From an uncultured Bryobacterales bacterium (GTDB lineage Bacteria > Acidobacteriota > Terriglobia > Bryobacterales > UBA6623): a stretch of DNA of 64,000 nt. A program made the position numbers and the translations under genes. Under the pieces are notes generated by a model that made no database searches, had not been told where the DNA came from, and saw only the letters and a list, made by a program, of their open reading frames with translations. This document shows, piece by piece, positions 9,285 through 27,513 of this stretch. The stretch's first letter is position 1. Each line of letters opens with the position of its first letter. The stretch covers positions 3,300,435 through 3,364,434 of the forward strand of contig OY282420.1 of the NCBI GenBank assembly GCA_958295955.1, read 5' to 3'.

Positions 9285-9296
9285 GACAATTTTTCT

Positions 9297-10502: not shown

Positions 10503-10511
10503 AGCTTTCTC

Positions 10512-11363: not shown

Positions 11364-12822
11364 GACTTTTCGGCCCTTTCGATTGCACCCGAACGCCGCC
11401 TGAGCCGCTCTTCTCGACTGCGCTTTCTTCCGCCTTGAGACCTTCCAGAATTTTTTCGCCGTAGCGCCAGATGCTGCCCGCGCCAAGCGTGATCACGGCC
11501 TCGCCGGCGCGCGCCTGCGTCGCCGCGCGGCGAACCGCGTCTTCGATGGATTCGCAGTATTCGACTGCCGGATGTCCCGCCGCGGCGATCTTTTCCACAA
11601 GCCGCAAGCTGTTCACGCCGGGCAAGGGCTTTTCGCCGGCCGCATAAATGTCCACTACCCAGAGGCGGTCGCAATCGGCGAAACAGCCGGCGAACTCGTC
11701 GAGCATCAGGTGCGTGCGGCTGTAGCGATGCGGTTGAAAAATGACGTTGACTCCCGTGAACGCGCAATTTCGCGCGGCCTTCAGGGTCGCTTGGATCTCC
11801 GTCGGATGGTGGCCGTAGTCGTCGACCACGGTGACTCCGGCGGCCTCGCCCCGTTTCTGGAAGCGGCGGTCAACGCCGCTGAACGCCGCCAGTCCGGCGC
11901 GGATTTTCTCCACCGGAATATCGACTTCGAGGCCCACCAACACTGCCGCCATCGCGTTGCGAACCGTGTGCAAGCCGACGCCGCGGATCTCGAATTTCCC
12001 TAAATCTTCGCCGCGGTAACGGAGTCGGAAGGCGCTTGTGAAATGCCCCAACTCGATTTGGTCGGCTACCAGGTCGGCCTCCGGCGAGAGTTCCTTGATG
12101 CCGTAGGTGCGGTAACGCCGCTCAATCGCCGGCGTGATCAGCTTCGCCTGCGGGTCGTCGATGCAGACGATCGCCGTCCCGTAAAAGGGCACCTTGTTGA
12201 CAAATTGCACGAAAGCTCCCGTGAGCGTTTCGACGGTGTGGTAGTGATCGAGATGTTCGCGGTCGATGTTCGTAACCACGGCGACGATCGGGTCGAGGTG
12301 CAGAAATGAGCCGTCCGACTCGTCGGCCTCGACGAGCAAAAAATCACTGTTGCCGAGGCGGGCGTTGGAGCCGATCGCATCGACGCGCCCGCCGACCACG
12401 ACGGTAGGGTCTTTCCCCCCCGAGTGGAGCACCGACGCGGTGATCGATGAAGTGGTGGTTTTTCCGTGGCTGCCGCCGACCGCGATGCCGTACTTCAGCC
12501 GCATCAACTCGGCGAGCAGCTCGCCGCGAAAGATTACCGGAATTTTTCTATGGCGCGCCGCCATCAACTCGACGTTGTAGTCGCTGATCGCCGAACTGAC
12601 GACGACTGCGTCGGCCCCGCCCACGTTGTCGGCGCCGTGCCCGATCGAGATCGTTGCGCCCAGCCCTCGCAAGCGTTGCGTAACGGTCGATTCCTGCAGG
12701 TCGGAGCCCGAAATGGCGTAGCCCAGATTCAGCAGGATTTCGGCAATGCCGCTCATGCCGATGCCGCCGATCCCGATGAAATGAATCCGCCTCTCGCGAA
12801 TGCCGATTTCCTTGAATAACAT
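11356..12822 (-). CDS. murC: UDP-N-acetylmuramate--L-alanine ligase MurC
   Basis: Cytoplasmic ATP-dependent ligase adding L-Ala to UDP-MurNAc. It has 488 residues from ATG at 12822, two bases after the murG stop, with AGAGGA as ribosome binding site inside the murG end. The N-terminal Rossmann motif is IHFIGIGGIGMSGIAEIL; the ATP-binding motif is AVGGSHGKTTTSSI; and VDDYGHHPTEIQATLKAAR marks the Mur ligase C-terminal part. Length and motif spacing are typical. Its 3' end overlaps ftsQ by 8 bases, indicating coupled translation. Confidence 0.96.
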   Translation of the reverse strand: MLFKEIGIRERRIHFIGIGGIGMSGIAEILLNLGYAISGSDLQESTVTQRLRGLGATISIGHGADNVGGADAVVVSSAISDYNVELMAARHRKIPVIFRGELLAELMRLKYGIAVGGSHGKTTTSSITASVLHSGGKDPTVVVGGRVDAIGSNARLGNSDFLLVEADESDGSFLHLDPIVAVVTNIDREHLDHYHTVETLTGAFVQFVNKVPFYGTAIVCIDDPQAKLITPAIERRYRTYGIKELSPEADLVADQIELGHFTSAFRLRYRGEDLGKFEIRGVGLHTVRNAMAAVLVGLEVDIPVEKIRAGLAAFSGVDRRFQKRGEAAGVTVVDDYGHHPTEIQATLKAARNCAFTGVNVIFQPHRYSRTHLMLDEFAGCFADCDRLWVVDIYAAGEKPLPGVNSLRLVEKIAAAGHPAVEYCESIEDAVRRAATQARAGEAVITLGAGSIWRYGEKILEGLKAEESAVEKSGSGGVRVQSKGPKSHG

Positions 12823-12824
12823 TG

Positions 12825-13997
12825 CTATCCTCTGCCTTCTCTCGTGCGGGCGATATTTTCGAGCTCGCCGGCGGCGCGCTCGGCAGCCCGGGGCATGGCC
12901 CGGCCGGCGGCAACCGCCGCCATCTCTTCGAGTTCGTCCGGTTGCGACCGCAAGCGATCCACCGTCTGCGCCATCTTCTCTCCCGTCCATTCGCCGTCTG
13001 CGACCAGCAGGGCGCCGCCCGCGCGGACCAGCTCGCGCGCATTGACGAGTTGATGATTGTCGGCCGCGTGAGGGAAGGGAATCAGGATCGACGCCTTGCC
13101 CGCCGCGCAAAGCTCGGCGAGGGCCGAAGCCCCGGCGCGGCAGATCACCAAATCCGCGCGGGCGCAGCGCGCCGGCGCGTCGTCGTAAAAGGGGGCTGTC
13201 TCGGCAGCGAATCCCAACTCGCGGTAAGCGCCGCGAACCCACTCGAAATCGTCGCTTCCGGTTTGATGGACGATATCGGGCGCCGCAGCGCCGGATGCCC
13301 GCCAATAGCGCGCCGCGCCGACCGCCGCTTCGTTGAGTTTGCGCGAGCCCCGGCTCCCGCCCGTGATCCACACGGTGAAAGTCCGCTTGACGGGCCGCGG
13401 CGGCCGCTCGAAAAACTCAGCCCGTACCGGCACGCCCGTTTGCCGGGCGATTCCGTTGCGGAAATACTTTGCCGCCGCCTCGAATCCGAGCAGCGCGCGG
13501 GAGGCGAACATGCCGGCGAGGCGGTTGGCCATGCCCGGCCTGGCGTTGGGCTCCATAACGACCAGCGGAGTTTCGCGCAGAGCGCAAGACAACGCCAGCG
13601 GCCCGGAGGCGTACCCGCCCAGGCTCAACACTGCGGCGGGTTTGACTTCGTCCAGAAGCCGCCAGGCCGAGTGCAGCGCGCGCGGCGCCTCCAGCGCGGT
13701 GCGCAGGCGGCGGCCCCAGGAAACGCGATTCAGCGGCCCGATGCGTATGTGCCGCAACTCGAACCCGGAGGCCGGAACCAGCCGGTTTTCCAGCCCGCGG
13801 GACGTGCCTGCGAAGATGCATTCATGGCCCCGGCGGCGCAGCGCCGCGGCGACCTGCAGAGCGGGGATCACGTGCCCGCCCGTTCCGCCGGCGGCGATCA
13901 CAAACCGCTCGCCGGCGGCCGCCGCCCCGGTTGTCGCCGTCTCCGCCGTTCGGGCGCGCGGATCAGAGACTGTGTCTATCGGCATAACGACTGACAT
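12825..13997 (-). CDS. murG: MurG, undecaprenyl-PP-MurNAc-pentapeptide GlcNAc transferase
   Basis: Makes lipid II from lipid I at the inner face of the membrane. The GT28 protein shows FVIAAGGTGGHVIPALQVA near residue 32, the SLGGYASGPLAL segment, WITGGSRGSRKLNE at the domain link, and the donor-binding part VICRAGASALAEL with FPHAADNHQ. About 30 residues precede the usual start of the family, so the true start may be ATG 13997 (overlapping ftsW by 35 bases) or ATG 13985. In E. coli-type clusters murG likewise follows ftsW. Confidence 0.96.
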   Translation of the reverse strand: MSVVMPIDTVSDPRARTAETATTGAAAAGERFVIAAGGTGGHVIPALQVAAALRRRGHECIFAGTSRGLENRLVPASGFELRHIRIGPLNRVSWGRRLRTALEAPRALHSAWRLLDEVKPAAVLSLGGYASGPLALSCALRETPLVVMEPNARPGMANRLAGMFASRALLGFEAAAKYFRNGIARQTGVPVRAEFFERPPRPVKRTFTVWITGGSRGSRKLNEAAVGAARYWRASGAAAPDIVHQTGSDDFEWVRGAYRELGFAAETAPFYDDAPARCARADLVICRAGASALAELCAAGKASILIPFPHAADNHQLVNARELVRAGGALLVADGEWTGEKMAQTVDRLRSQPDELEEMAAVAAGRAMPRAAERAAGELENIARTREGRG

Positions 13998-15051
13998 TCA
14001 GCAACACCCCCGCGGACGCGAGCATCGTAATCATCGCCGAGCCGCCGTAGCTGATAAACGGCAGCGGCATTCCCTTGGTCGGCAATAGCGCCAGAACGAC
14101 GCCCATGTTGAACATCGCCTGAAAAATAATCATGGCCGTCACGCCCAGCGCCAAGTAGCATCCGAAAGTATTCGGCGCCTTGATTGCGGCCCGCAGACCG
14201 CGCCATAGCAACACGCCGAACGCCAGAACGACAAAGACGGCCCCGATTAAACCCAACTCTTCGCCGATCAAGGCAAAGATGAAGTCGGTATGCGCTTCCG
14301 GCAGAAAGTGCATTTTCTGCTTGCCGGCCATCCAACCCTGACCGAACCAGCCTCCCGAGCCGACCGCGATCTCCGACTGTAGAATCTGAAAACCGCTGCC
14401 CAGCGGGTCGGCTCCCGGATCGCGAAATGCGATCAAGCGTTGGAGCCGGTACGGCACGCGCCAGACGAAAAAAAACAGCAGCGGAACGAGCGCCGCCGCG
14501 GCCGGCGCGATGAAGCGCAGCGGCAGGCCCGCCACGAAGAGCATCACTCCCGCCAGAACCAGCAGGGAAGCCATCGTGCCGAAGTCGCGCCCGACGTAAA
14601 TCAGCAGCGACAGCACGGCGATGATGAAGCCCAAGCCGGCGACCGTCCGCCAATCGCCGAGGCGTTCGCGGCGCTGCTCGAGATAAAACGCCAGGAACAG
14701 GATGAGAGCCGGCTTGGCCAATTCCGAAGGCTGCAGCGAAAAATGCCACAAACGCAAGAAACGGCGGGTGTTAGCCCCCGTGCCGAGCAGCGCGGCCAAG
14801 ACCAGCAGCACCACCGAAACGCCCAGTACGGCGAAGACGACTTTTTCCTGCCGCAGCTTGCGGTAATCGAGAAACATCAGATAGCGCATCGCCGTCAAGC
14901 CGATTGAGGCCGCAATGCCCTGCTTGATAATGTAGGTCCAAGTGGTTTCCGAGGAGGCCGTCGTCGCGCTGAACACCATCACCAGCCCGAAAAACGTCAG
15001 CGTGAGGATCGTCCCGCACAGCAGCCGGTCGTAGCGCAAGGCGCTTGGCAT
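13963..15051 (-). CDS. ftsW: Septal peptidoglycan glycosyltransferase FtsW (SEDS family)
   Basis: A 362-residue multi-pass membrane protein that polymerises lipid II at the septum with its partner FtsI. About ten hydrophobic segments are visible. Family landmarks include LRLWHFSLQPSELAKPALILFLA split over the middle, VGRDFGTMASLLVLAGVM, and the C-terminal LALLPTKGMPLPFISYGGS. The start ATG lies one base after the murD stop. It could be confused with RodA, but its place between murD and murG makes FtsW the right call. Confidence 0.95.
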   Translation of the reverse strand: MPSALRYDRLLCGTILTLTFFGLVMVFSATTASSETTWTYIIKQGIAASIGLTAMRYLMFLDYRKLRQEKVVFAVLGVSVVLLVLAALLGTGANTRRFLRLWHFSLQPSELAKPALILFLAFYLEQRRERLGDWRTVAGLGFIIAVLSLLIYVGRDFGTMASLLVLAGVMLFVAGLPLRFIAPAAAALVPLLFFFVWRVPYRLQRLIAFRDPGADPLGSGFQILQSEIAVGSGGWFGQGWMAGKQKMHFLPEAHTDFIFALIGEELGLIGAVFVVLAFGVLLWRGLRAAIKAPNTFGCYLALGVTAMIIFQAMFNMGVVLALLPTKGMPLPFISYGGSAMITMLASAGVLLNVSRYADRHSL

Positions 15052-15052
15052 A

Positions 15053-16390
15053 TCAGCTCTCCAACTCCTTGACGAGGCGCTTGAATTCCAGGCCGCGTTC
15101 GGCGTAATCGGCGAATTGGTCGAAGCTGGCGCAGGCCGGCGCGAGGACGACGGAATCTCCCGGCTGCGCGTGATTCCTGGCGAAGGCCACCGCGCGCTCC
15201 ATCGTGGCTACGTCTTCGATCGGCGCCGCGCCGCCCAGATGGCCGCGAATGATGGGGGCGGCCTCGCCGATCAACAGAACGCGCCGCGCGCGGGCGGCCA
15301 GCGCATCGCTTAGCGGGCGGTAGTCCGCTCCCTTGTCGCGTCCGCCCAAGATGATCCACAGCCCCTTGTCGAATGTCCGGCAGGCTTTCAGCGCCGCATC
15401 GACGTTGGTCGCCTTGGAATCGTTGTAGTAGGAGACGCCCTGCACGCTGCGCACGAACTCCAGGCGGTGCTCGACCGGCCGGAAAGACTTCAGCGCGCGG
15501 CCGATGACGTCCGGCTGCACTCCCGCGGCCGCCGCCGCCGCCGCCGCCGCGAGTGCGTTTTCCAGATTGTGCGGCCCCTTGATCGGCAGGTCGAGACCGC
15601 AGACGAATCTGCCGTCGGACACGATTCCCTGCGCGTCGGCGAAGGCTCCCCGGTCAACCCGCCGCTCCCGGCTGAACCATAGCAACTGAGAATCCACGGT
15701 CCCCGCGAGCTTGCGGCAGCAGGCGTCATCCGCGTTCAGAACGGCGAAATCTCCGGGCTTCTGATTGGCGAGAATCCGGCGCTTGGCGTCGGCATAGGCG
15801 GCGAACGTGCGGTGGCGGTCCAAATGATCGGGCGTGACGTTGAGAACGACCGCGATATGGCAACGGAAAGCGCGCGATGCTTCGAGTTGAAAGCTCGACA
15901 ACTCCAGGACGCGCCACGGGTCGGGGCGCGAGTCTTCGACCGTGGACAGCAGCGGCGTGCCGATGTTGCCGGCGACGCTGACCGCGCGGCCGGCTTGCTC
16001 CAGAATATGGCCGATTAACGAGGTCGTCGTCGTTTTCCCGTTGGTTCCGGTGATGCCGATCACGCGGCCCCGGAGACAGGCGGCGGCGATATCCAGTTCG
16101 CCTACGGTGCGGATTCCGCGCTCCCGCGCCGCGGTCAGGCAAGGATGATCCCAAGCTACCCCCGGCGACGGCACGACCGCATCTTGCTCAAGAAAGAGCC
16201 GTTCCGTTTGTTTGCCGAGATGCAACTCGACCGGCAGCCCCTCGAGCGCGGCCGCGGCCGGCCCGAGTTCGTCTTCCGGGCGCGTATCCGTTACCGCGAC
16301 CAACGCGCCCCGGCTCAGCAAAAAACGCGCCGCCGCCAGGCCGGACTTGCCCAATCCGACGACCAGCACGCGTTTTCCTTGCCAAGTCAT
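15053..16390 (-). CDS. murD: UDP-MurNAc-L-alanine--D-glutamate ligase MurD
   Basis: Cytoplasmic ligase adding D-Glu to UDP-MurNAc-L-Ala. The chosen start, ATG 16390, overlaps the mraY stop by four bases (ATGA) and gives 445 residues beginning MTWQGKRVLVVGLGKSGLAA, the uridine-binding motif. The ATP loop is VIGITGTNGKTTTTSLIG, and LNVTPDHLDRH is the central-domain signature. NDSKATNVDAALKA and WIILGGRDKGADY are the usual C-terminal markers. Motif order and length are normal. Confidence 0.96.
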   Translation of the reverse strand: MTWQGKRVLVVGLGKSGLAAARFLLSRGALVAVTDTRPEDELGPAAAALEGLPVELHLGKQTERLFLEQDAVVPSPGVAWDHPCLTAARERGIRTVGELDIAAACLRGRVIGITGTNGKTTTTSLIGHILEQAGRAVSVAGNIGTPLLSTVEDSRPDPWRVLELSSFQLEASRAFRCHIAVVLNVTPDHLDRHRTFAAYADAKRRILANQKPGDFAVLNADDACCRKLAGTVDSQLLWFSRERRVDRGAFADAQGIVSDGRFVCGLDLPIKGPHNLENALAAAAAAAAAGVQPDVIGRALKSFRPVEHRLEFVRSVQGVSYYNDSKATNVDAALKACRTFDKGLWIILGGRDKGADYRPLSDALAARARRVLLIGEAAPIIRGHLGGAAPIEDVATMERAVAFARNHAQPGDSVVLAPACASFDQFADYAERGLEFKRLVKELES

Positions 16391-17517
16391 CGTAATTTCA
16401 GCGTACTCAACGCCAGCAAGGCCCATACGAACCCGGCGATCCAAAAGCGCGCGATCACCTTCGACTCCGGCCAACCCAGTTGCTCGAAATGATGGTGCAG
16501 CGGCGCCATGCGGAATATCCGTTTCCCGCGTGTTTTGAAGCTCGTTACCTGCAAGATCACCGACAGCGTTTCCGCGGCGAAGACCCCGCCGATGAATAGC
16601 AGGACAATCTCCTGCTTCACCAGCACGGCGACCGTCCCAATGGCGCCGCCCAGCCCGAGCGCGCCCACGTCGCCCATGAAAATCTCGGCCGGATGGGCGT
16701 TATACCAGAGAAACGCCAGGCTCGCTCCGACGATGGCCCCGCAAAAGACGGTCAACTCGCCCGCCTGCGGCACGCCCGGAACATCGAGATACTGCGCAAT
16801 CTCGCGATGCCCGGCAATGTACACCAGCAGCGTCAGCGCGCCGACGCAGATGATCGTCAGCCCGATGGCCAGCCCGTCGAGTCCGTCGGTGAGATTGACG
16901 GCATTGCTGGCGCCGACCAACACGAAAAACAGGAATCCGAAAAACAGAATGAAAGCGAATGGAAACAGGAAGCCGCCGGTCAACGGCTCGATCACCGGGT
17001 TCGGCCGAACGTCCTTGAAGAACGGCAACGTAATCGTCATGTCGTACAAGCCGTGCCCGTGCAGCCGGATCAGGACGCCGCCGATGGCCAGAGTCATCAG
17101 CGCCTGCAAACCCATCTTGGCCCGCGATGAAAGCCCGAGGCTGCGTTGCTTGTTGACCTTCAAATAGTCGTCCAGCAGTCCGATCGCGGCGAAACCGGTC
17201 AGCGCGAATAACGCGACCCAGACGTATGTATTGCTCAAGTCCGCCCAGAGGAGCGTAGGCAGGACGATCGACAGGTTGAGCAACAACCCGCCCATCGTGG
17301 GCGTGCCGGCCTTTTGCCGATGCGATTCGGGGCCGTCTCCCCGAATGTATTGGCCGATCTGCGCCGCGCGCAACCGCCGGATGAACCACGGCCCCATCGT
17401 CAGCCCCAGGCCGAGCGCCATGAAGCTCGCCAACGCGGTGCGGACGGTGATGTAGCCGAACACCCGCAGCGGGCTGAAATACTCGAACAACTGTTCGTAC
17501 AGGAGGTGGTAGAACAC
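16387..17517 (-). CDS. mraY: Phospho-MurNAc-pentapeptide translocase MraY
   Basis: Inner-membrane enzyme that transfers phospho-MurNAc-pentapeptide to undecaprenyl phosphate, giving lipid I. The 376-residue protein has about ten membrane segments. Signatures are GTPTMGGLLL near the N-terminus, GLLDDYLKVNKQRSLGLSSR with the catalytic DD pair, NAVNLTDGLDGLAIG, GDVGALGLGGAIG, and the histidine-rich FRMAPLHHHFEQLGWPE. The start is a GTG at 17517, four bases past the murF stop, with GAGGAAGG upstream. The next gene, murD, overlaps by ATGA. Confidence 0.97.
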   Translation of the reverse strand: MFYHLLYEQLFEYFSPLRVFGYITVRTALASFMALGLGLTMGPWFIRRLRAAQIGQYIRGDGPESHRQKAGTPTMGGLLLNLSIVLPTLLWADLSNTYVWVALFALTGFAAIGLLDDYLKVNKQRSLGLSSRAKMGLQALMTLAIGGVLIRLHGHGLYDMTITLPFFKDVRPNPVIEPLTGGFLFPFAFILFFGFLFFVLVGASNAVNLTDGLDGLAIGLTIICVGALTLLVYIAGHREIAQYLDVPGVPQAGELTVFCGAIVGASLAFLWYNAHPAEIFMGDVGALGLGGAIGTVAVLVKQEIVLLFIGGVFAAETLSVILQVTSFKTRGKRIFRMAPLHHHFEQLGWPESKVIARFWIAGFVWALLALSTLKLR

Positions 17518-17521
17518 GATG

Positions 17522-18892
17522 CTAGCCGCCTTCCTCGACGAGCGCTTCCGCTGCGCCCATTGCCTCGAAGATCAGGTTTCTGGCGCGCTCGAGGGCAATC
17601 CCGCGGGAACCTTTCAAGAGCACGGCGTCGCCGGGAGCGAGGTCTTCGGCCAGAGCCGCCCCGGCCGATTCCGGCGTCTCGTAGAATTCAGCCGGGAAAT
17701 CGGCAGCCGCAACGATTTGAGATGCGTCGCCGCCGACCGCGAGCAGGCGATCGATCCCGGCCGCGCCGGCTGCTTTGCCGATGCTGCGGTGGAGCGTCTT
17801 CGACTGCGCGCCCAACTCGCGCATTTCGCCCAGCACGGCGATGCGCCGGCGCGCCGGAGTGTTCTTCAGCACTTCCAGCATGGCCCGCATTGCCGCCGGG
17901 TTGGCGTTGTAGCAATCGTCGATGATCGTCACTCCGCCACTGCGTCGAATCTCGCCGCGCATGCCGACGGGATGCAAACGGCGGACCGCCTCGGCGAGCG
18001 CCGGCAACTCGAGTCCGAACGACCGCGCCGCAGCCAGCCCGGCAAGGATGTTGTAAACGTTGTGGCGCCCGGCGAGCGGGGTTTCGAACCGGCAGCCCTC
18101 TACGCGGAAACGAACCCCGCCGGCGCCCAGATCGACGATATCGTCGGCGCGGACATCGGCCGGCCGCTCGATGCCGAACGCGACCGTGCGGCCCGAGTGC
18201 GCCGCGCGGAAGGCGGCAACCCGTTCGTCGTCCGCGTTGAGCGCCGCCGTGCCGCCGGCGTCGAGCGATTCGATCAATTCCCGTTTCGCCGCGGCCACGC
18301 CGGCGACCGAATCGAAGTGGCCCACGTGGGCCGCGCTGACGTTGGTCACGACGCCGACGTCGGGCTGCGCAATCTCGGCTAGGCGGCGAATTTCTCCGGA
18401 GTGGTTCATGCCCAATTCGAGCACGGCGATCCGCGCGCGGTCTTCGATCCTCAGAATCGAAAGCGGCAGCCCCAATTCGTTGTTCAGATTGCCGGCCGTC
18501 TTCGAGACGGCGAAGGTTTCGCTCAGCAGAGCGGCGGTGATTTCCTTGGTTGTCGTCTTGCCGTTGCTTCCGGTGACGGCAACCACCGACCCGCCCCAAT
18601 GAAGCCGCGCCGCGCGCGCCAGCCGGCGCAGCGCTTCCGCCGGATCGGCAACCTGAATTGCGGCGCCGCTGCGGCCGGGCCGCCGGCCTGTCTCGACTAC
18701 GGCGGCGGCGGCTCCCGCGGCGAGCGCCTGCTCGACGTAGTCGTGGCCGTCGCGGCGCGGCCCGCGGATGGCGAAGAACAAATCGCCCGGGCGCACCGTC
18801 CGCGAATCGATAGAATAGCCCGCCGCCGTCGCCCCGGCGGCGTCCGGCTTGGCGTCCAGCCACTCTCCGATCTGCGCCAGGGATAACTTCAC
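17522..18892 (-). CDS. murF: UDP-MurNAc-tripeptide--D-Ala-D-Ala ligase MurF
   Basis: Adds the D-Ala-D-Ala dipeptide in the last cytoplasmic step of the peptidoglycan precursor. It has 456 residues. GYSIDSRTVRPGDLFFAIRG is the N-terminal uridine-binding domain, VVAVTGSNGKTTTKEITAAL the ATP loop, ELGMNHSGEI the central signature, and IDDCYNANPAAMRAML the C-terminal domain. Translation starts at a GTG that overlaps the murE stop (GTGA). With ddl absent from the window, the dipeptide must be made by a gene elsewhere. Confidence 0.96.
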   Translation of the reverse strand: MKLSLAQIGEWLDAKPDAAGATAAGYSIDSRTVRPGDLFFAIRGPRRDGHDYVEQALAAGAAAAVVETGRRPGRSGAAIQVADPAEALRRLARAARLHWGGSVVAVTGSNGKTTTKEITAALLSETFAVSKTAGNLNNELGLPLSILRIEDRARIAVLELGMNHSGEIRRLAEIAQPDVGVVTNVSAAHVGHFDSVAGVAAAKRELIESLDAGGTAALNADDERVAAFRAAHSGRTVAFGIERPADVRADDIVDLGAGGVRFRVEGCRFETPLAGRHNVYNILAGLAAARSFGLELPALAEAVRRLHPVGMRGEIRRSGGVTIIDDCYNANPAAMRAMLEVLKNTPARRRIAVLGEMRELGAQSKTLHRSIGKAAGAAGIDRLLAVGGDASQIVAAADFPAEFYETPESAGAALAEDLAPGDAVLLKGSRGIALERARNLIFEAMGAAEALVEEGG

Positions 18893-20370
18893 TGCTGCCC
18901 GTACCCCAATTCATGCAGCGCTTTGCGCGCCGTTTGCCGATCGTCGAACGGCAGCTTGACGCCGCCGATGTCCTGATATGCCTCATGGCCCTTGCCCGCG
19001 ATGAGCACGATGTCGCTTGGGCGCGCTTGTCCGAGGACGGCTGCGATCGCCGCCGCCCGGTCCGGTTCGATGGCGTAAGCCGCCGACCCTGCCCGCAGCC
19101 CCGTTTCCGCATCGCGGACGATCCGCGCCGGGTCTTCCGTGCGCGGGTTGTCGGAGGTCAGCACGACCCAGTCGCTCAAGGTCCCCGCCGCGCGGCCCAT
19201 GGCGGGGCGCTTTGCGCGGTCGCGGTCGCCGCCGCACCCGAACAGCGTCAGAACTCTCCCGGAGCCGCCCCGGCGCGACAGCAGGGCCCGCGCCGCCTCG
19301 ATCAGCCGCTGCAGCGCGTCGGCGGTGTGCGCGTAGTCGACGACCACGAGAAACGGCTGCCCCTGATCGACGGTCTCGAAGCGGCCGGGCACGGCCGGCG
19401 TTGCGCGCAGGCCGCGCTCGATTTGCTGCGGGGAAACCCCGTGCGTCAGCGCCGCCGCGATCGCCGCCAGGATGTTGTCCACATTGAACTCGCCGCGCAG
19501 CCGCGACTCGACCCGGATCTTGCCGGCCGGCGTTTCGGCGCTGAACTTGACGCCTGCGAACCCGACTTCGACAGCGGTTGCCGCTACGTCCGCGGCGGGC
19601 GTTCGCCCGTACGACAGTTTTTCCGATTTGCTGCCGCTCAGCAGGTCCCGGCCCAGCGCGTCGTCCATGTTGATCGCCGCGAATCGCGGGACCGCTCCTC
19701 CGGCGCCCGTGAACAGCCGCCTCTTGGCGGCGGCATAGCGCTGCATGTCGCCGTGGAAATCCAGGTGGTCTTGCGACAAGTTCGTAAAGACCGCCGTATG
19801 GAAGTCCATGCCGAACACTCTGCCGATCTCGAGACCGTGCGAAGAAACTTCCATGGTTGCGTCCGAGCCGCCGATATCGCGCAACTCGGCCAGAAAGCGG
19901 ATGACGTCCAGCGATTCGGGCGTCGTGTTGACCGCCGGCGCCGCGCGCTCTCCAACGCGGTGCTCGATCGTCCCCAGCCGCGCCGTGATTCTTCCCGCCG
20001 AGCGCAGGAGCGAGTCGATCAGATATACGGTCGTGGTCTTGCCGTTGGTGCCGGTGACGCCCGTCAGCTTCAGCTTGCGGTCGGGCCGGCGGTAAAGGCG
20101 CAGCGCGGCTGCGGCCAGCGCCCGGCGCCCATGCCGCACCGTTGCCCAGCGGTCTTCGAAACCCTTTTGGGCGGCTCGCTCGCTCACAATCGCCGCGGCG
20201 CCCGCGGCGACCGCCTGCGCAACGAAGCGGTGTCCGTCAACGCGCTCGCCGGGGAAAGGAAAGAAAGCGTCGCCCGCCCGTATCTTCCGCGAGTCGTATT
20301 GCATCCCGGCTACGCGCAGGGGCGGAACTTTGCCGATCGATACGCCTGCGAGCATTGCGTCGAGCCTCAT
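18889..20370 (-). CDS. murE: UDP-MurNAc-dipeptide--meso-diaminopimelate ligase MurE
   Basis: Adds the third amino acid of the peptidoglycan stem. The 493-residue protein shows MQYDSRKIRAGDAFFPFPGE, the ATP loop LTGVTGTNGKTTTVYLI, TNLSQDHLDFHG and FGCGGDRDRAKRPAMG. The motif DNPR in VVLTSDNPRTEDP is the known marker for meso-diaminopimelate instead of lysine, so the cell wall is of the Gram-negative mDAP type. It overlaps ftsI upstream (ATGA) and murF downstream (GTGA). Confidence 0.97.
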   Translation of the reverse strand: MRLDAMLAGVSIGKVPPLRVAGMQYDSRKIRAGDAFFPFPGERVDGHRFVAQAVAAGAAAIVSERAAQKGFEDRWATVRHGRRALAAAALRLYRRPDRKLKLTGVTGTNGKTTTVYLIDSLLRSAGRITARLGTIEHRVGERAAPAVNTTPESLDVIRFLAELRDIGGSDATMEVSSHGLEIGRVFGMDFHTAVFTNLSQDHLDFHGDMQRYAAAKRRLFTGAGGAVPRFAAINMDDALGRDLLSGSKSEKLSYGRTPAADVAATAVEVGFAGVKFSAETPAGKIRVESRLRGEFNVDNILAAIAAALTHGVSPQQIERGLRATPAVPGRFETVDQGQPFLVVVDYAHTADALQRLIEAARALLSRRGGSGRVLTLFGCGGDRDRAKRPAMGRAAGTLSDWVVLTSDNPRTEDPARIVRDAETGLRAGSAAYAIEPDRAAAIAAVLGQARPSDIVLIAGKGHEAYQDIGGVKLPFDDRQTARKALHELGYGQQ

Positions 20371-22541
20371 CCCCCGCCGCTCGCCTGCGTATTGCGCGCC
20401 GCTCCCGCCGGTTTCGCGCTTTTCGCCGGAAGCGCGCGCGCCAAAAGAACCTTGACAACCGACCCGCGCGTCAGAGGCGTGTCCGGACCGGGCGATTGAT
20501 GCAGCACGAGTCCATGTCCGTCGACATCGAGGGCAATGCCCATCTTCACGGCCAGCTTGAGCACTTCACGCATCGGCATCCCGCGAAAATCCGGAGTCAC
20601 CAGATCGGTAACCCGCACGGCGACCTTCGACTCTTTCGGGGAATCGCCGCCGGCCTCTGCCGGAGCCGCGCGGCCGCCGGCGGACGCCCCCCGCGAGGCC
20701 ACCAGGATATGGCCGTCCGCGTCCGTCGCCTGACTTTCGGCTTCGTCCTCTGCAATGAAGTCCGCCAGCAGATGATCGGGAACTTCCGGCGGCGGAGCGG
20801 CCTTGCGGTCTTGCGCATGTCCCGGCGCAACATCCAGGTAGCGCAGGGCTTGTTGCACGACTCGCGGAAATACGGGGGCGGATATCCTGCCGCCGTAGTA
20901 TTCCCTGCCTTGCGGAGCATCGAGCACGACCACGCCGACCACGGCAGGGTCGTTGACCGGCGCAAACCCGCAAAAACTGGCGACATAGGTGCCGTCTTGA
21001 TAGGAGCGCGTTTCGGGATTGATCATTTGCGCGGTGCCGGTTTTGCCGCCGACGCGGTAACCGGGGATTTGCGCCAGGCGGCCCGTTCCGGAAGCCACTA
21101 CGCGTTCCAGAATGGCCCGCATCGTGGTCGCGGTGTCCGAGCTGAGCACGCGCACTTTCGACGCATGCTCGAAAGCGGTCGTTACCCCGTAGTGGTTGCG
21201 CGCCGCGGCAACGATGCGCGGTTGAACCAGATAGCCGTCGTTGGCGATGACCGCGAACAGGCGCGCCATCTGCAGCGCCGTTACGCCCACTTCCTGGCCC
21301 ATCGAAACCGACGCGAGCGAATCGGAATGCCAGCGATTGAGCGGACGGACCAGCCCGCCGGTTTCTCCCGGCAAGGTTATGTTCGTGAATCGGCCGAATC
21401 CGAAGCGGGTGAGATAGCGGTGCATCGTATCGGGTCCGACGCGCATCCCCGCCTTGATAATGCCGACATTGCTCGATTTCACGAGCACGTCGGCCAGTGT
21501 CAGCAGTCCGAAGGGTTTGTGATCGCGAATCCGGCGCCGGCCGATATTGATTCCGCCCATCTCGCAATCGAACACGTCGTCCGGGCGCGCCACCCCTTCT
21601 TCGATCGCCGCCGCCGCGGTCACGATCTTGAAAGTCGAGCCGGGCTCGATCATGTGGCTGACGGCGAAATTCTTGCGGTTCTCGAGCTCCTGCTTCGTTC
21701 GGGCTCTTTGGTTCGGATCGAACGGCGGCCAGTTAGCCATGGCCAGGATTTCGCCCGACTCCGGGCGCATCAGCACGATCGTTCCCGCGCGCGACAGCGA
21801 GCTCGTCACGGCGCGCTTGAGCTCGAGCTCCGCCAGACTCTGTATGCGCAGATCGAGCGTCAGCAGCAGGTCGTCGCCGGAGATCGGCGCGCGCAGTTCC
21901 TGACGCTTGTAATCCTGCCGCCGCGCATCGTATTGCAGCAGCCTGACGCCGTCCGTGCCGCGCAACTGCTTGTCGAAATGGAACTCGAGCCCCGATTGGC
22001 CGCTGTGATCCATGCCGACCGCGCCGATGACCTGGGCGGCCACCGAACCCTTCGGATAGTAGCGCTTGCCTTCTTCCTCGAAGTGCAGCGCCTTGATGCC
22101 CAATTGCCGCACCCGTTCGACCTCGGCGGGGTTCGCCTGCCGCTTGACCCATTGAAACCGCGGACTCGTAAACTTCCGGCGAAGCTCTGCTTCGTCGATT
22201 TGCAGAATGTCGGCCAGCGTGCCCGCGGCAACTTCCGGATTTTCAATTTTCTTGGGGAAAACGCCGATCGACTGAACCGGAGTGCTCAGCGCCAATTCCG
22301 CGCCGGTGCGGTCGTAAATCGCGCCGCGGTCGGCGCGGATATCCACCTCGCCCTCTTGCTGGTTGGCGGCTTTTGTGGTCAAGAAGTCGGTTTGACGAAC
22401 CTGAAAGTCCCAAAGGCGCACAATCAGGAGGCCGAACCAGAGCGTCGCGACCAAGCCGAAAACATAGATTCGAATCAGTCGCCGGCGATTCGCGGCGGCG
22501 GAGAGCCCCTGCAATTCATCTTCTGCCGGCGTGCCGCTCAT
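20367..22541 (-). CDS. ftsI: Septal transpeptidase FtsI (PBP3-type) with one PASTA domain
   Basis: Class B penicillin-binding protein that cross-links septal peptidoglycan with FtsW. ATG 22541 is preferred over the upstream TTG 22559 and gives 724 residues. One membrane anchor lies near residues 25-45. After the pedestal domain the transpeptidase shows the active-site SxxK (Ser302 in GSTFK), SSN near 356-358 and KTGTA near 500. A single PASTA domain (TDLVTPDFRGMPMREVL) closes the protein; it probably binds peptidoglycan. PASTA-bearing FtsI is usual in Acidobacteriota and Gram-positives but not in proteobacteria. It is separated from ftsL by 85 bases and overlaps murE by ATGA. Confidence 0.95.
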   Translation of the reverse strand: MSGTPAEDELQGLSAAANRRRLIRIYVFGLVATLWFGLLIVRLWDFQVRQTDFLTTKAANQQEGEVDIRADRGAIYDRTGAELALSTPVQSIGVFPKKIENPEVAAGTLADILQIDEAELRRKFTSPRFQWVKRQANPAEVERVRQLGIKALHFEEEGKRYYPKGSVAAQVIGAVGMDHSGQSGLEFHFDKQLRGTDGVRLLQYDARRQDYKRQELRAPISGDDLLLTLDLRIQSLAELELKRAVTSSLSRAGTIVLMRPESGEILAMANWPPFDPNQRARTKQELENRKNFAVSHMIEPGSTFKIVTAAAAIEEGVARPDDVFDCEMGGINIGRRRIRDHKPFGLLTLADVLVKSSNVGIIKAGMRVGPDTMHRYLTRFGFGRFTNITLPGETGGLVRPLNRWHSDSLASVSMGQEVGVTALQMARLFAVIANDGYLVQPRIVAAARNHYGVTTAFEHASKVRVLSSDTATTMRAILERVVASGTGRLAQIPGYRVGGKTGTAQMINPETRSYQDGTYVASFCGFAPVNDPAVVGVVVLDAPQGREYYGGRISAPVFPRVVQQALRYLDVAPGHAQDRKAAPPPEVPDHLLADFIAEDEAESQATDADGHILVASRGASAGGRAAPAEAGGDSPKESKVAVRVTDLVTPDFRGMPMREVLKLAVKMGIALDVDGHGLVLHQSPGPDTPLTRGSVVKVLLARALPAKSAKPAGAARNTQASGGG

Positions 22542-22626
22542 TCTCTGTCCGAACCTCAAAATCGACTCGTTTCAATGCATGTGTCCGACGCTCTGCGCGG
22601 ATGGGGCCGGCCGCGGGAACATCCGA

Positions 22627-23154
22627 TCAATCGCCTTCCATCAGTAATTGCGCCAGCGCATTATCCGTATTCGCCGCCGGCGCCGTCCGCTCCTGCCACG
22701 TGTAATCTTCGGGCTTGGGTTCGACAAACCCTTCTTTCGCCGCTAACTCCGCCACCCGCCGCAGGTCGCCCAACTGCCCTTGTCGCACGGTAAGCTGACC
22801 CTGCACCATCTTCAGTTCTTCGACCTGCCGGCTGAGCTCGGCCGTCCGATATCCTGACTGCCGAACCCAGGCGCGCGGCCCGTACCCGATCAACAAAGTC
22901 AGCGCCGCTGCCAGGCCAATGCCCAAAAAGCCCCGCAGCGAGCGTTTATCGGTCGGGTCATAGCGGTATTCCACCGTGTCGTTGTCGATCGGTTTGATAA
23001 AAAAAGCAACATCCTCCAGTGGCAGCGAGCGCGTAAACGCAGCTCGACGAGAGAGCCTGGCGCGGATATTGCGCCCGGCCCGGACGCCGTCGTAGGTAAA
23101 CCCATTGACCTGTTTGTTCGACGGCGCCGCGGGTGCAGACTCTCTCGGTAGCAT
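22627..23154 (-). CDS. ftsL: FtsL-like divisome protein
   Basis: A 175-residue bitopic protein in the ftsL position between rsmH and ftsI. ATG 23154 is chosen because GGAGGAG lies four bases before it. A basic cytoplasmic part of about 85 residues precedes one membrane segment (GFLGIGLAAALTLLIGYGP), then a short coiled coil (ELSRQVEELKMVQGQLTVRQ) typical of FtsL, which pairs with FtsB and FtsQ. Sequence similarity in this family is low, so the call rests on layout and gene order. The cytoplasmic part is longer than in E. coli FtsL. Confidence 0.8.
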   Translation of the reverse strand: MLPRESAPAAPSNKQVNGFTYDGVRAGRNIRARLSRRAAFTRSLPLEDVAFFIKPIDNDTVEYRYDPTDKRSLRGFLGIGLAAALTLLIGYGPRAWVRQSGYRTAELSRQVEELKMVQGQLTVRQGQLGDLRRVAELAAKEGFVEPKPEDYTWQERTAPAANTDNALAQLLMEGD

Positions 23155-23191
23155 TTGCTCCTCCATTGCGTCACAATCCCTATTGATCGCC

Positions 23192-24082
23192 CTATTGATC
23201 GAATTGCCCGATGGCGCGGTCCGTTCGACGAACCGCCCGCAGTTTGGCGCTGCGGCTGGGCGGATTCTTATCGACCTCATCCGCTGAGGGGCGCATCACG
23301 CCCTTCGTCAAAATTTCATAAATTCCGGCGTCGGCTCCGCCGCGGAACGATTGCTTCACCAACCTGTCTTCGCCGCTATGAAAACTCACCGTAACGAAGC
23401 GGCCGTTCGCGGCGAGCAGCGCAGGCGCCGCGCCCAACAGCTTCTGCAACTCGCCGAGTTCGTCGTTCACGGCCATGCGCAAAGCCTGAAACGTCTTTGT
23501 CGCCGGATGAATGCGCCGTCTTTTGGGCCGAGCCGCGGCCCGCGCGACGATCTCCGCTAAATGCCGCGTGTTCCTGACGGGCCGCTCGCGGACAATGGCC
23601 GCGGCGATTCTTCTGCTGCGGCGCTCGCCTCCCAGTTGGTAGATCAGGTCGGCGAGCCGGGTTTCGTCGTAGCGATTGACGATGCGCTCGGCTTGCAGCT
23701 CCTGGTCGCGGTCCATGCGCATATCCAGGGGCCCCTCGGCCCGAAAGCTGAAGCCCCGCTCGGGGTCGTCGAGTTGCCGGCTCGAAAGGCCCAGGTCCGC
23801 GACGATTCCGTCCAGCGGCGCGCAGCCCCTGACCGCCTGTGCGATTTCTCCGTAGCTGCCGTGATAAAACGACACGTTTTCTCCAAACTCTTCAAAGCGC
23901 TCGCGGCAAGCGGCAAGCGCTTCCCGATCGCGGTCGATCAACACCAGCCGCCCCTTTTCGAGACGGCGCAATATCATGCCGGCGTACCCGCCGGCTCCTG
24001 CCGTGCAGTCGCAGTACGTTCCGTCCGGAGCGATGCGCAGGCATTGCTCCGCTTCCGGCAACATGACGGGGTAGTGGCCCAT
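23192..24082 (-). CDS. rsmH: 16S rRNA (cytosine1402-N4)-methyltransferase RsmH (MraW)
   Basis: SAM-dependent enzyme that methylates C1402 in the ribosomal decoding centre. ATG 24082 gives 296 residues and the canonical start GHYPVMLPEAEQCL. The SAM loop is YCDCTAGAGGYAGMIL; IVADLGLSSRQLDDPERGFSF and HPATKTFQALRMAVN are family signatures; and VTVSFHSGEDRLVKQ lies near the end. It follows mraZ by 11 bases, with GGGGTGGG as ribosome binding site, as in nearly all dcw clusters. Confidence 0.96.
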   Translation of the reverse strand: MGHYPVMLPEAEQCLRIAPDGTYCDCTAGAGGYAGMILRRLEKGRLVLIDRDREALAACRERFEEFGENVSFYHGSYGEIAQAVRGCAPLDGIVADLGLSSRQLDDPERGFSFRAEGPLDMRMDRDQELQAERIVNRYDETRLADLIYQLGGERRSRRIAAAIVRERPVRNTRHLAEIVARAAARPKRRRIHPATKTFQALRMAVNDELGELQKLLGAAPALLAANGRFVTVSFHSGEDRLVKQSFRGGADAGIYEILTKGVMRPSADEVDKNPPSRSAKLRAVRRTDRAIGQFDQ

Positions 24083-24093
24083 GTCCCACCCCG

Positions 24094-24555
24094 TTAGAAT
24101 CCGTAATCCGCCGCACGTCCCAATTCGTCCCCGGAAAGCTCGTTGGCTGCCGCCGCGGCTTCGTAATTCGCCGCGCTCAGCACAACCATGTGGTTCGATT
24201 GCCACTGGATTTTCACTTCGCCCCTCATGCCTGCCGAGTCCCGCAACACGGCAGGCACGAGGAAACGTCCCTGGTTGTCCAAGGTATTCTCCGCTCCATA
24301 GCGGTTTGCCTGAAACAAAATCTTGTTTTTCATCGCGCCGTCCGCCGCCTGATTGCCCGCAGTCGATTTATCCGCTAATCTGGACTCGACGGCCGCCCAC
24401 TCCTTGATCGGGAAAACGCTGACGGTCACGCCGTCCAAACTGGTGATGAAGACTTCTCCGCTCTCGTATTGCTCTTGCAACCGGCGCTGCACCAGGGACG
24501 ACACCTTCAGCCGGCCCTTGGCGTCGACGTTGCCCGATTGCGCTCCCCGAAACAT
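24094..24555 (-). CDS. mraZ: MraZ transcriptional regulator of the dcw cluster
   Basis: A 153-residue AbrB-fold DNA-binding protein that represses its own operon. ATG 24555 yields the usual start MFRGAQSGNVDAKGRLKVSS and has GAGGGG in front; an in-frame TTG lies three codons upstream. Two swapped-hairpin repeats are visible, the first at NVDAKGRLKVSS and the second at TLDNQGRFLVPAVLRDSAG. MraZ forms a ring that binds tandem short repeats. Such repeats are present 41-86 bases upstream, overlapping the predicted promoter, so autoregulation is well supported. It is the first gene of the dcw cluster. Confidence 0.95.
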   Translation of the reverse strand: MFRGAQSGNVDAKGRLKVSSLVQRRLQEQYESGEVFITSLDGVTVSVFPIKEWAAVESRLADKSTAGNQAADGAMKNKILFQANRYGAENTLDNQGRFLVPAVLRDSAGMRGEVKIQWQSNHMVVLSAANYEAAAAANELSGDELGRAADYGF

Positions 24556-24595
24556 GCCCCTCAACCGTCAGAATGTCCGTGTCCAAACAGCTTGA

Positions 24596-24641
24596 CTACT
24601 TTCAACCACTTAAGATCACTTCCGTCCACTTTTGACCACCT
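24596..24641 (-). promoter_or_regulatory. MraZ operator: five boxes at 10-bp spacing
   Basis: Read on the minus strand, five hexamers follow at exactly ten-base steps: AGGTGG, AAGTGG, AAGTGA, AAGTGG and AAGTAG. On the plus strand they occupy 24636-24641, 24626-24631, 24616-24621, 24606-24611 and 24596-24601. MraZ-binding repeats in other bacteria are GTG-containing hexamers repeated at about one helical turn, so all boxes face the same side of the DNA. The array lies between the -10 element and the mraZ start, where binding would block RNA polymerase. Confidence 0.88.
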
Positions 24642-24670
24642 ATTCTGAATATCTGCCCAAAGGTTGTCAA
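24642..24670 (-). promoter_or_regulatory. Predicted promoter of the dcw operon
   Basis: On the minus strand a perfect -35 TTGACA (24665-24670) is separated by 17 bases from a fair -10 CAGAAT (24642-24647). Two A-tracts upstream (24682-24699) resemble an UP element. Transcription should start within the first MraZ boxes. No other comparable promoter is seen before rsmH. Confidence 0.65.
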
Positions 24671-24736
24671 GGGTCTGCGTCGATTTTTTTCAGTTTTTTA
24701 TCGATTGACTAAATCTTGCTGTAGTTTTTTCTCGAG

Positions 24737-24752
24737 ATACAACATGTTGTAT
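24737..24752. promoter_or_regulatory. 16-bp perfect palindrome, possible operator
   Basis: ATACAACATGTTGTAT is a perfect inverted repeat about 67 bases upstream of the dcw -35 element. It lies in the 355-base gene-free stretch between mraZ and the next sulfatase. Its form suits a dimeric helix-turn-helix regulator. Read on the plus strand it is followed by a T-run, but the stem is AT-rich and no gene ends there, so a terminator is less likely. Nothing recognisable was seen in the remaining part, 24753-24910. Confidence 0.4.
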
Positions 24753-24910
24753 TTTTGTTGCCTTTTGACAGGCTGAAAAGCAAGGCGGAACCCGCTCGTT
24801 CGGGGCGATCTGAGCGGTTGAGACCGGCGCCGGACGCCAGGCGCGGCAGTGTGCAGGCAAGGGGCCTGTTGCCCGGCGGGCCGTTCGATCTTGGCGCCGG
24901 CGGCGTCCGC

Positions 24911-26359
24911 TCAGGGCTTGCCGGCCTTGGGCTTGCGCCGCCAGGAATAGCTTTGGGGGTCGAACTCGAAGGCGCTTTTGGGCAGCGCCGCCGGCGCGTT
25001 GCCGGCGGGCAGCCGCCGCGCGTGCCGCTCGATGACCGCGGCATACGCGGGGTCTGCGGCGAGATTGGTCCATTCGCCGGGGTCGCGCGCGTGGTCGTAC
25101 AGTTCCTCGCCGCCGTCGGCGTAACGGATATAGCGGTAGCGCTCCGAGCGAACGGCATGGTTTCCGCGCCCGAAGGTCATCACGGCCGGACGCGCCCATT
25201 CCCGCTTGGGGTCCTCGAGCAACGGCCGCAGGCTGACGCCCTCGAGAGCCGCCCGGGGCGGCAGGCCGCATAGATCGAGCAGCGTCGGATATAGGTTCAG
25301 CAGGCTGACGGGCCGCGTGGAGACGGTCTGCGGCCTGGTCACTCCCGGCGCAACGATCGCCAGGGGCACGCGCGACGACCGCTCCCAAAGCGTATTCTTT
25401 GCGAAGTGATGCTTTTCGCCGAAGTGGTAGCCGTGGTCGGACCAGAATACGACGATCGTGTTCTGCGCATAGGCGCCGGCGTCGAGCGCGTCGAGCAAGC
25501 GGCCTATCAGCGCGTCCGCGTGACGGATGCACGCCGTGTACGCGCGGACCACGTCGTCGAGGTCGCCGTGCTCGAGAATCAACTCCAGGTCGTTCGTGCG
25601 GAAGGCCGCCATCCTGCGGCCGGCCGGCGGCACGTCGTCGAGATCGCCGGGCTTATCCGGCGGGACCGGCGCCTCGTCCGGCCCGACCGCGTCGTACTGC
25701 GCCCGCGGCGCATAGAACGGCAGATGCGGTTGGAACAGCCCCACGGCGAGGAAAAACGGACGTTCGTGCTTGCGCGCCAGGAACTCCTCCGCCCAACGCA
25801 CCGTCGCGCCGTCGCCCATCTCCATGTCCGCGCGGTCGAGCGGCCCCCAGTCGAAGCTCGTCAGATGATTGGGCCGGCGGTAGGGAACCAGAAAGCCTGC
25901 GGATTTCAGATCGTCCTGCAGGTCGAAGTACTCGTCCCACGAATCGGGCGGATTGAAGCCCGGAGTGTGATGAAAAACCTTGCCGCCCCCCGCTGCGTAG
26001 TAGCCGTTGTCCTTGAAGTAGCGCGGCAGCATCACGACTTTGGGGAGGTTCGGCTTCCACCACTCGCCGTTGCCGTAGATTCCGCTGGTGGACGGCCGCA
26101 GCCCGGAGAGAATCGCGGTGCGCGAAGGGTTGCACTTCGGCGAGGGGGCGTGAGCGTTCGCGAACAACGCGCCCCGCGCGGCGAGACGGTCGATGTTGGG
26201 CGTCCGCGCCGGCGCGTAGCCCAAGGCGCCGACCCAGTCGTTCATGTCGTCCACGCTGAGGAACAGCACGTTCGGCCGGGCGGCATGGGCCGGAGCAGCC
26301 GTCAACCAGACGCAGGCCGCCAAGAGCGAGAGGCGCGCCGCCGCCGCTTGCCCGCTCAT
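24911..26359 (-). CDS. Sulfatase, secreted (choline-sulfatase/iduronate-sulfatase-like)
   Basis: A 482-residue type I sulfatase. ATG 26359 overlaps the sialidase stop by four bases (ATGA). A Sec signal ends at AHA near residue 26. PNVLFLSVDDMNDWVG binds calcium; the formylglycine motif is CNPSR at 76-80; FWSDHGYHFGEKHHFAKN completes the metal site. The VDDMNDW and HGYHFGEK patterns resemble the iduronate-2-sulfatase branch (family S1 subfamily with the KCNPSR form). Translational coupling to the sialidase suggests both act on the same or related glycans. Substrate not determinable from sequence alone. Confidence 0.92.
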   Translation of the reverse strand: MSGQAAAARLSLLAACVWLTAAPAHAARPNVLFLSVDDMNDWVGALGYAPARTPNIDRLAARGALFANAHAPSPKCNPSRTAILSGLRPSTSGIYGNGEWWKPNLPKVVMLPRYFKDNGYYAAGGGKVFHHTPGFNPPDSWDEYFDLQDDLKSAGFLVPYRRPNHLTSFDWGPLDRADMEMGDGATVRWAEEFLARKHERPFFLAVGLFQPHLPFYAPRAQYDAVGPDEAPVPPDKPGDLDDVPPAGRRMAAFRTNDLELILEHGDLDDVVRAYTACIRHADALIGRLLDALDAGAYAQNTIVVFWSDHGYHFGEKHHFAKNTLWERSSRVPLAIVAPGVTRPQTVSTRPVSLLNLYPTLLDLCGLPPRAALEGVSLRPLLEDPKREWARPAVMTFGRGNHAVRSERYRYIRYADGGEELYDHARDPGEWTNLAADPAYAAVIERHARRLPAGNAPAALPKSAFEFDPQSYSWRRKPKAGKP

Positions 26360-27513
26360 GCCTTGCCGCCCTCCAGCCGTTCCACCGGGAAGCGCGCCAG
26401 GCGGATGCCCTCGTAAGCGTGCCGTTCTCCGGCTTCGTACAGCAGCCCTACCCGCTCGTCGGGCAGCCGCGCCAGGCTCGAATAGGCCGCCGGGCCTTCG
26501 TGAATCGGCAGCTTCGCGGGCCACGTCCGGCCGCCGTCGCGGCTCAGGCGCGCCGTCATGCGGATACGCTTGCCCCGCTCGGGCGAGACCGGCGGGCTGG
26601 GATTGGCGAACAGCAGCATCCCGCCGCCTTCTTCATCGGGCCGGGCATAGCGGATCAGGCTCGCCTGCACTTGCGGATCGCCCAAATGCGCGTCGAAATG
26701 CGGCGGGGTCCACGTTTCCCCGCCGTCGGAGCTGAAAGCGATCGAGCGGTATCCCGTGCGCTCTTCGCCGGTGAACGACTGGCTGCGCATGTTCATCATC
26801 AGGCGGCCGCCGCTCAACTCGACGACCTGGCTCTCGTTGCAGGCCGGGGCAATGACGGCGCTGCGCCGCCACGAGCCGCCGCCGTCGTCGGAAAAGATGA
26901 CGTGGGCCGCGAACCCCTTCCGTTGCGACGTGTGATTCGCCGGCACGACGATGCGCCCCGCGCGGACGCCGTTGCGGATCTGAATCGCCGTTCCCGGCCC
27001 GGTGGCGTACCACCACCAATCGCCGCCCTTGGCTTGCGCCGTGATGTCCCGCGCCGGCGCCCAACTCTTGCCGTCGTCGGCGGAATGCGTCAGATAAACT
27101 TTGCGCGCGCCTTTCGCGGTGCCGTCGTGCAACTCGCGGCCGCGGTCATCGCCGCGGTTCCAGGTCATCGGCAGCAGGATGCGCCCCGTCCGCGCGTCGA
27201 CAACCGGACAGGGGTTGCCGCAAGTGTTGTCCTCGTCGCTCCAGACGACTTGCGGGGGCGACCAGGTAGCGCCCGCGTCGTCCGAGCGCTTGAGGACAAG
27301 GTCGATGGCGCCGCTGTCGCCGCGGCCGTCCCGGCGGCCTTCGCAAAACGCCAGCAGCGTCCCTTGCGGCGTGGGTAGCAGCGCGGGGATGCGGTATGTA
27401 TGGTAGCCGTCTGCGCCGGCGGCGAACACGACCCGTTGGTCGATGCTCCGTTGCTGCGGAAGAGCGATGACCGGGCAGCAGGCCGCGGCGAATGTCCGCC
27501 GTGTGATCGTCAT
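26356..27513 (-). CDS. Exo-alpha-sialidase (BNR-repeat neuraminidase)
   Basis: A 385-residue GH33-like six-bladed propeller. The N-terminus has a twin-arginine-like signal (TITRRTFAAACCPVIALP). The sialidase YRIP motif (YHTYRIPALL) supplies the first catalytic arginine, and five Asp boxes of form SxDxGxTW are present (SDDAGATW, SADDGKSW, SDDGGGSW, SSDGGETW, SRDGGRTW). It would remove terminal sialic acid outside the cytoplasm. ATG 27513 is preferred over an upstream TTG. It is followed by an overlapping sulfatase. Many BNR proteins in this group have unproven specificity. Confidence 0.88.
   Translation of the reverse strand: MTITRRTFAAACCPVIALPQQRSIDQRVVFAAGADGYHTYRIPALLPTPQGTLLAFCEGRRDGRGDSGAIDLVLKRSDDAGATWSPPQVVWSDEDNTCGNPCPVVDARTGRILLPMTWNRGDDRGRELHDGTAKGARKVYLTHSADDGKSWAPARDITAQAKGGDWWWYATGPGTAIQIRNGVRAGRIVVPANHTSQRKGFAAHVIFSDDGGGSWRRSAVIAPACNESQVVELSGGRLMMNMRSQSFTGEERTGYRSIAFSSDGGETWTPPHFDAHLGDPQVQASLIRYARPDEEGGGMLLFANPSPPVSPERGKRIRMTARLSRDGGRTWPAKLPIHEGPAAYSSLARLPDERVGLLYEAGERHAYEGIRLARFPVERLEGGKA

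Follow-up and report, generated by a model that had tools for sequence, protein, structure and literature searches.

A pair of palindromic boxes of the NrdR type lies upstream of the promoter of mraZ in the 64-kb stretch of DNA analyzed here (hereafter, the window), and the same pair precedes nrdJ and smc elsewhere in the genome. The sites are conserved among relatives, keep their spacing and, in the window's own genome, are restricted to these three operons. We infer NrdR as the protein bound, the sign of its effect, and the binding of MraZ to its own row of boxes at the mraZ promoter. On the sequence data, it is likely that the dcw cluster is governed by MraZ autorepression together with NrdR, with dNTP status as an input common to precursor synthesis, chromosome segregation and division. 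With somewhat less assurance, we propose that NrdR of the Terriglobia is a cell-cycle regulator and not a repressor of RNR genes alone, its dATP-loaded form acting on nrdJ, on smc and on the dcw cluster as a whole, with MraZ and NrdR forming a two-input division gate. The pair at dcw was missed by an earlier sequence-only reading of this DNA, which had described the MraZ boxes.

Promoter and MraZ boxes of the dcw cluster

The MraZ boxes lie at the promoter of mraZ, the first gene of a dcw cluster that extends to ftsZ:

24094-24555, minus strand: mraZ, 153 aa (Pfam MraZ, E 2e-12)
23192-24097, minus strand: rsmH (mraW), overlapping the end of mraZ (Pfam Methyltransf_5, E 1e-91)
7860-22559, minus strand: remaining dcw genes ftsI, murE, a murF-like gene, mraY, murD, ftsW, murG, murC, ftsQ, ftsA and ftsZ (Pfam/NCBIfam)

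The mraZ product exceeds the Pfam gathering score (47.1 versus 23) but stays far below the cut-off of the NCBIfam equivalog TIGR00242 (48.9, cut-off 98.35), which marks it as a diverged MraZ. Both DxxGR motifs of MraZ are present; the match to solved MraZ structures is one of sequence only, and weak. The ORF at the position of ftsL (22627-23280) has no Pfam match. Beyond ftsZ (window 2277-8254), a gene for a CehA/McbA-type hydrolase with a TolB-like propeller is found between two sulfatase-like genes, and another sulfatase gene lies upstream of mraZ, at 24911-26524.

A promoter scan of the interval 24000-25400 returned a single promoter-like site, TTGACA and CAGAAT separated by 17 nt (10/12 matches). 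The site and the boxes that follow it are arranged as follows:

24665-24670, minus strand: −35 hexamer of the dcw promoter, TTGACA (promoter scan; family alignment)
24642-24647, minus strand: −10 hexamer of the dcw promoter, CAGAAT (promoter scan)
24596-24641, minus strand: predicted five-box MraZ operator with a 10-bp period (pattern scan, shuffles)
24636-24641, minus strand: MraZ box 1, AGGTGG
24626-24631, minus strand: MraZ box 2, AAGTGG
24616-24621, minus strand: MraZ box 3, AAGTGA
24606-24611, minus strand: MraZ box 4, AAGTGG
24596-24601, minus strand: MraZ box 5, AAGTAG

The −10 hexamer directly abuts box 1. Judging from the distance to this hexamer, transcription should start near 24635, so that box 1 should fall between the −10 motif and the start, and boxes 2-5 within the first ~40 transcribed bases. 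In aligned mraZ upstream regions, TTGAC occupies the −35 place in 18/18 genomes of the family, and GATAAT, GACAAT and similar sequences are found at the −10 place in relatives. A search for five AAGTGG hexamers at 10-bp steps, with at most three mismatches, gave one match in the 64 kb and 0/100 in shuffled sequences. Since the hexamers flanking the array match AAGTGG at only 2/6 positions before it and 0/6 after it, five is the correct number of boxes. Thus, the TTGACA-17-CAGAAT promoter and the five GTG hexamers at 10-bp steps are exactly where the sequence-only reading had placed them, and its claim of an MraZ operator overlapping the dcw promoter agrees with the Pfam assignment of mraZ and the dcw genes down to ftsZ, the operator itself being predicted from sequence. 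In a 400-kb sample of the window's own genome, the strongest five-box array outside mraZ scored 26.0 bits, as compared to 36.3 for mraZ. This 10-bp tandem array, consisting of three to four copies of AAGTGGGATT (L302:17898; G000:C1 about 4297898), may be a coding repeat or a second MraZ target.

Conservation was assessed in the mraZ upstream regions of 140 loci of the class (60 + 80, the window's own included), using a hexamer matrix learned on the 18 family members, themselves within the 140. Chains scoring at least 18 bits, which we counted as strong arrays, are found behind the promoter at step 10 in 125 of the 140 loci; steps 7, 8, 9, 11, 12 and 13 gave 1, 0, 1, 1, 1 and 7 loci, respectively. 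The spacing is therefore conserved in relatives, as the sequence-only reading had held that it must be for its interpretation to stand. The acidobacterial host that it had surmised is borne out as well, the two named relatives being uncultured Bryobacterales (Acidobacteriota, Terriglobia). The array has five boxes in 17 of the 18 family genomes and four in the remaining one; outside the family, within the class, the number is usually 3 to 6. With step-10 arrays present at most loci of the class and five boxes typical of the family, the array is an ordinary MraZ operator. Thus the count of five was correct, but not its presentation as something out of the ordinary, five being the norm; similarly, boxes 3 and 5 are degenerate as described, but box 1 departs from the consensus too. 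In short, the array as first described is confirmed, and is ordinary for the family.

The E. coli dcw promoter carries three MraZ boxes. The operator of B. cenocepacia consists of four GTG repeats of 7 nt each, separated by 3-nt spacers and located downstream of the −10 motif and over the start site (PMC7761207), and the MraZ repeats of Mycoplasma read AAAGTG[T/G] (PMC8475190). The array described here resembles these operators in having GTG boxes at 10-bp intervals directly after the −10 motif, overlapping the start, in front of mraZ and dcw; it differs from them in having five boxes rather than three or four, a diverged MraZ and the core AAGTGG.

The unequal boxes had been taken to suggest graded repression, with the MraZ ring filling five sites stepwise. 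Boxes 1, 3 and 5 are indeed off consensus, and weak boxes occur in each of the family genomes; however, the position of the weak box varies between genera and no fixed grading is conserved. A fixed grading scheme is thus not favored, and we regard the proposal as doubtful. It would be far less probable still that the function of the repeats lies in the RNA of the 5′ leader, in the manner of an attenuator or a structured leader. Boxes 2-5 would be within the transcript, but the folding of the leader is not above that of shuffled sequences (z 0.64, with 148/200 shuffles at least as stable), and a 10-bp period maintained across variable linkers suggests a protein sitting on one face of the DNA.

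NrdR-type pairs at mraZ, nrdJ and smc

In the literature consulted, NrdR is described as repressing RNR genes, topA being its single additional target and a disputed one. According to PMC12051234, the NrdR tetramer recognizes pairs of boxes once it carries dATP and ATP, and needs two boxes that are in helical phase; the usual gap between them is 15-16 bp, and the published search pattern is C.[AT].A[AT].[AT].G twice, with a spacer of 20-23 (short class).

Alignment of the mraZ upstream regions revealed a palindromic element, in many cases present twice, that precedes the promoter at a constant distance. Within the window, this region comprises:

24737-24752, minus strand: NrdR-type box A, ATACAACATGTTGTAT, a perfect 16-bp palindrome (nrdJ-trained matrix, published pattern)
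24706-24721, minus strand: NrdR-type box B, CAGCAAGATTTAGTCA, weak (nrdJ-trained matrix, published pattern)
24671-24705, minus strand: A-tract stretch from box B to the −35 hexamer, possibly an UP element, judging by its composition

Both boxes fit the C.W.AW.W.G pattern, with the cores CAACATGTTG and CAAGATTTAG, the latter being that of box B. The gap between the 16-bp boxes is 15 bp (spacer of 21 between the 10-mer cores) and falls within the interval of 14-17 bp (or 24-27) that was allowed between such boxes, 15 bp being the most frequent gap published; 35 bp separate the pair from the −35 hexamer. A BlaI/MecI-type operator was considered for the palindrome and rejected: its inner spacing is off by 2 bp, and it leaves the pairing of the boxes unexplained.

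An NrdR gene is found in 17 of the 18 family genomes, the one that lacks it being 74% complete, and a gene for the RNR large subunit in all 18. In the window's own genome this is the B12-dependent NrdJ, and a like pair is present at nrdJ, as we expected of an NrdR system. In several family nrdJ promoters the pair overlaps or encloses a TTGACA-like −35 motif, which is a plain repressor layout. Because a regular expression of the published type (centre allowed in either orientation) found only 3/18 mraZ regions and 8/18 nrd regions of the family, it was judged too stringent across relatives, and a matrix was used instead. For the training of this palindromic 16-bp matrix, only sequences upstream of nrdJ were used, from 16 family genomes; two nrd loci, L066 and L076, were left out (contig start, fused frame). 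Box A scored 17.3 bits with this matrix, the highest value for any single box in the window, and box B 4.2 bits. The pair, at 21.5 bits, ranked first in the 64 kb (runner-up, 14.9 bits) and exceeded the strongest pair in the 400-kb own-genome sample (18.3 bits).

The mraZ pair was counted at 124 loci, of which 18 belong to the family (f1); 15 of the 140 loci, with arrays below 18, were dropped, as was L099, which has too little upstream sequence. With 300 dinucleotide shuffles of each sequence, the pair reached p≤0.0133 in 17/18 family genomes, mostly at the floor of 1/301; with 200 shuffles of a 230-nt region, p≤0.01 was again obtained in 17/18. The pair is present at a fixed place in all 6 genera, one of which accounts for 11 of the 18 genomes. 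The exception, G004, gave unconvincing values (p 0.045 with 200 shuffles and 0.063 with 300). At the recA promoter, used as control, none of 17 family genomes reached p≤0.01, and 7/17 reached p≤0.05 (the eighteenth genome has only a weak RecA-like hit); the latter threshold is thus too lax for related sequences, and the stricter one, p≤0.01, was retained. Among 497 real 350-nt segments from the same loci, the 99% quantile was 13.6 bits, a value exceeded by 15/18 mraZ and 9/17 smc regions.

The smc site came from a search of the family genomes with a model built from 12 pairs (R1). In the window's own genome, this model found mraZ, nrdJ and a site outside the training set, ~160 bp upstream of smc (TIGR02168, E 4e-118, partial protein). 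The site (L214:1500-1546; G000:C1 about 1952072-1952114) lies between smc and a divergent TolB-like gene. The pair upstream of smc reached p≤0.01 in 12/17 family genomes, comprising all 6 genera. Its mean score was 13.4 bits at a spacing of 31 bp and ~3.5 at other spacings, the matrix having no spacing term; in the family, the start-to-start distance peaks at 31 for both mraZ and smc.

A larger model (R3: 23 pairs, both strands, own-genome sites excluded) was run over the whole 4.58-Mb own genome. At E≤10 it gave 4 rows at 3 places, namely smc (E 0.019), mraZ (0.11) and nrdJ (1.28); as training held the orthologous sites of relatives, these hits are out of sample for the sites and not for the genes. 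Over the 18 genomes, at E≤3, it found 24 places, 19 of them at nrdJ, mraZ or smc and 5 elsewhere; 9 of the 19 were absent from the training set, including three near copies of training rows. Two of the five off-target places are repeat copies in G004, the genome with the weakest mraZ pair of the family, where strong NrdR-like palindromes stand 36 bp apart (L207:1500-1550 and L212:1500-1550). Judging by the translations, the other off-target places L206 and L248 (G016, G017) coincide with the end of a predicted ORF resembling metallohydrolases and precede an ORF resembling integrases, respectively. A profile made from nrd sites only, spacer included (R2: 7 sequences), found nrdJ in the own genome at E≤10 and not mraZ or smc; it did match the mraZ site of G007 (E 0.69). 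This profile is probably overfitted; its result at mraZ and smc counts against the NrdR reading.

Proposed regulation and competing readings

The following model is proposed. MraZ rings would assemble on the five boxes, over and just past the start, and repress the operon, mraZ included; MraZ would in this manner set the level of expression by autorepression from below the start. NrdR tetramers carrying dATP and ATP would bind the palindrome pair, located ~80-110 bp before the start, and alter the output of the promoter. The effect would most likely be a lower output, through interference with polymerase contacts upstream of the −35 motif; we prefer such repression by loss of upstream contacts, activation being possible too. 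Because the same pair precedes nrdJ, smc and mraZ, the three operons would respond jointly: with increasing dATP, the synthesis of DNA precursors, chromosome condensation and the transcription of division genes would all be reduced, and with decreasing dATP all three would be released.

Compared to the box pairs of RNR operons, the mraZ pair has the same C.W.AW.W.G pattern, the same two palindromic boxes with a 15-bp spacer, and a counterpart at this genome's own nrdJ; unlike them, it is found before dcw and smc rather than an RNR gene, is located on the upstream side of the −35 motif and has a weak box B. The pairs might instead be genuine regulatory sites shared by nrdJ, mraZ and smc and bound by another dimeric cell-cycle regulator, one that would recognize palindromes in tandem at a distance of about three helical turns. 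This would fit the varying centres of the boxes (GC-rich, for example, at the mraZ sites of family f6) and the position of the mraZ pair upstream of −35. However, motif and spacing are the published ones of NrdR, the classical NrdR target, the RNR gene, is preceded by the strongest pair, 17/18 genomes encode NrdR, and the centres of the f6 nrd boxes are relaxed likewise. We hold a regulator other than NrdR to be unlikely. Even less probable is that the MraZ operator alone is of importance and that the palindromes upstream of it are incidental or serve a neighboring gene. In several genomes of genus g5, a divergent ORF upstream could own the site; on the other hand, the gene upstream in the window runs in the same direction as mraZ, the association of the pair with mraZ persists while the neighborhood varies by genus, and the genome-wide hits are restricted to smc, mraZ and nrdJ.

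If NrdR is indeed the protein involved, the pair joining nrdJ, smc and dcw would represent new targets of a known regulator. Our searches of openly licensed PMC papers found no report linking NrdR to mraZ, cell division or smc. For P. aeruginosa, an increase of topA expression by NrdR has been reported (PMC4409342); topA has a single NrdR box, and the mechanism has been questioned (PMC12051234). The sites described here resemble the topA site in preceding a non-RNR gene tied to chromosome topology, and differ from it in being pairs with canonical spacing, conserved over genera. How division is matched to DNA replication in bacteria is a long-standing question. The occurrence of one pair at DNA-precursor, segregation and division genes suggests a single coordinating signal; an NrdR-type pair conserved at both dcw and smc would wire the dATP pool directly to division and segregation, which is a testable proposition. 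If true, in Terriglobia the dNTP pool would directly set chromosome segregation and the expression of division genes.

Distribution over the class

Outside the family, p≤0.01 was reached by 34/106 mraZ, 14/29 smc and 17/30 nrd regions of the class (30 smc genomes, 29 scored; L274, with its N-terminal hit unlisted, was omitted). For mraZ, the counts by family are 2/11 in f3, 5/22 in f6, 10/21 in f7, 3/6 in f8, 1/3 in f10, 12/23 in f11 and 1/1 in f13; no mraZ pair at this threshold was found in f5 (0/6), f9 (0/9) or the single loci of f2, f12, f14 and f15. Thus, the NrdR-type link has a patchy distribution over the class, and the family to which the window belongs shows it most strongly. The smc spacing peaks at 30 bp in the other families.

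No DnaA boxes were found in the mraZ upstream regions of the window's family. In f7 and f11, the DnaA-box-like sequence TTATCCACA occurs upstream of mraZ in 3/21 and 3/23 loci, respectively, and TT[TG]TCCACA in 5/21 and 12/23 (examples are L083, L111, L127, L131, L133 and L150). Most of these sites are located between the NrdR-type pair and the −35 motif and precede the first MraZ box by 63-87 bp.
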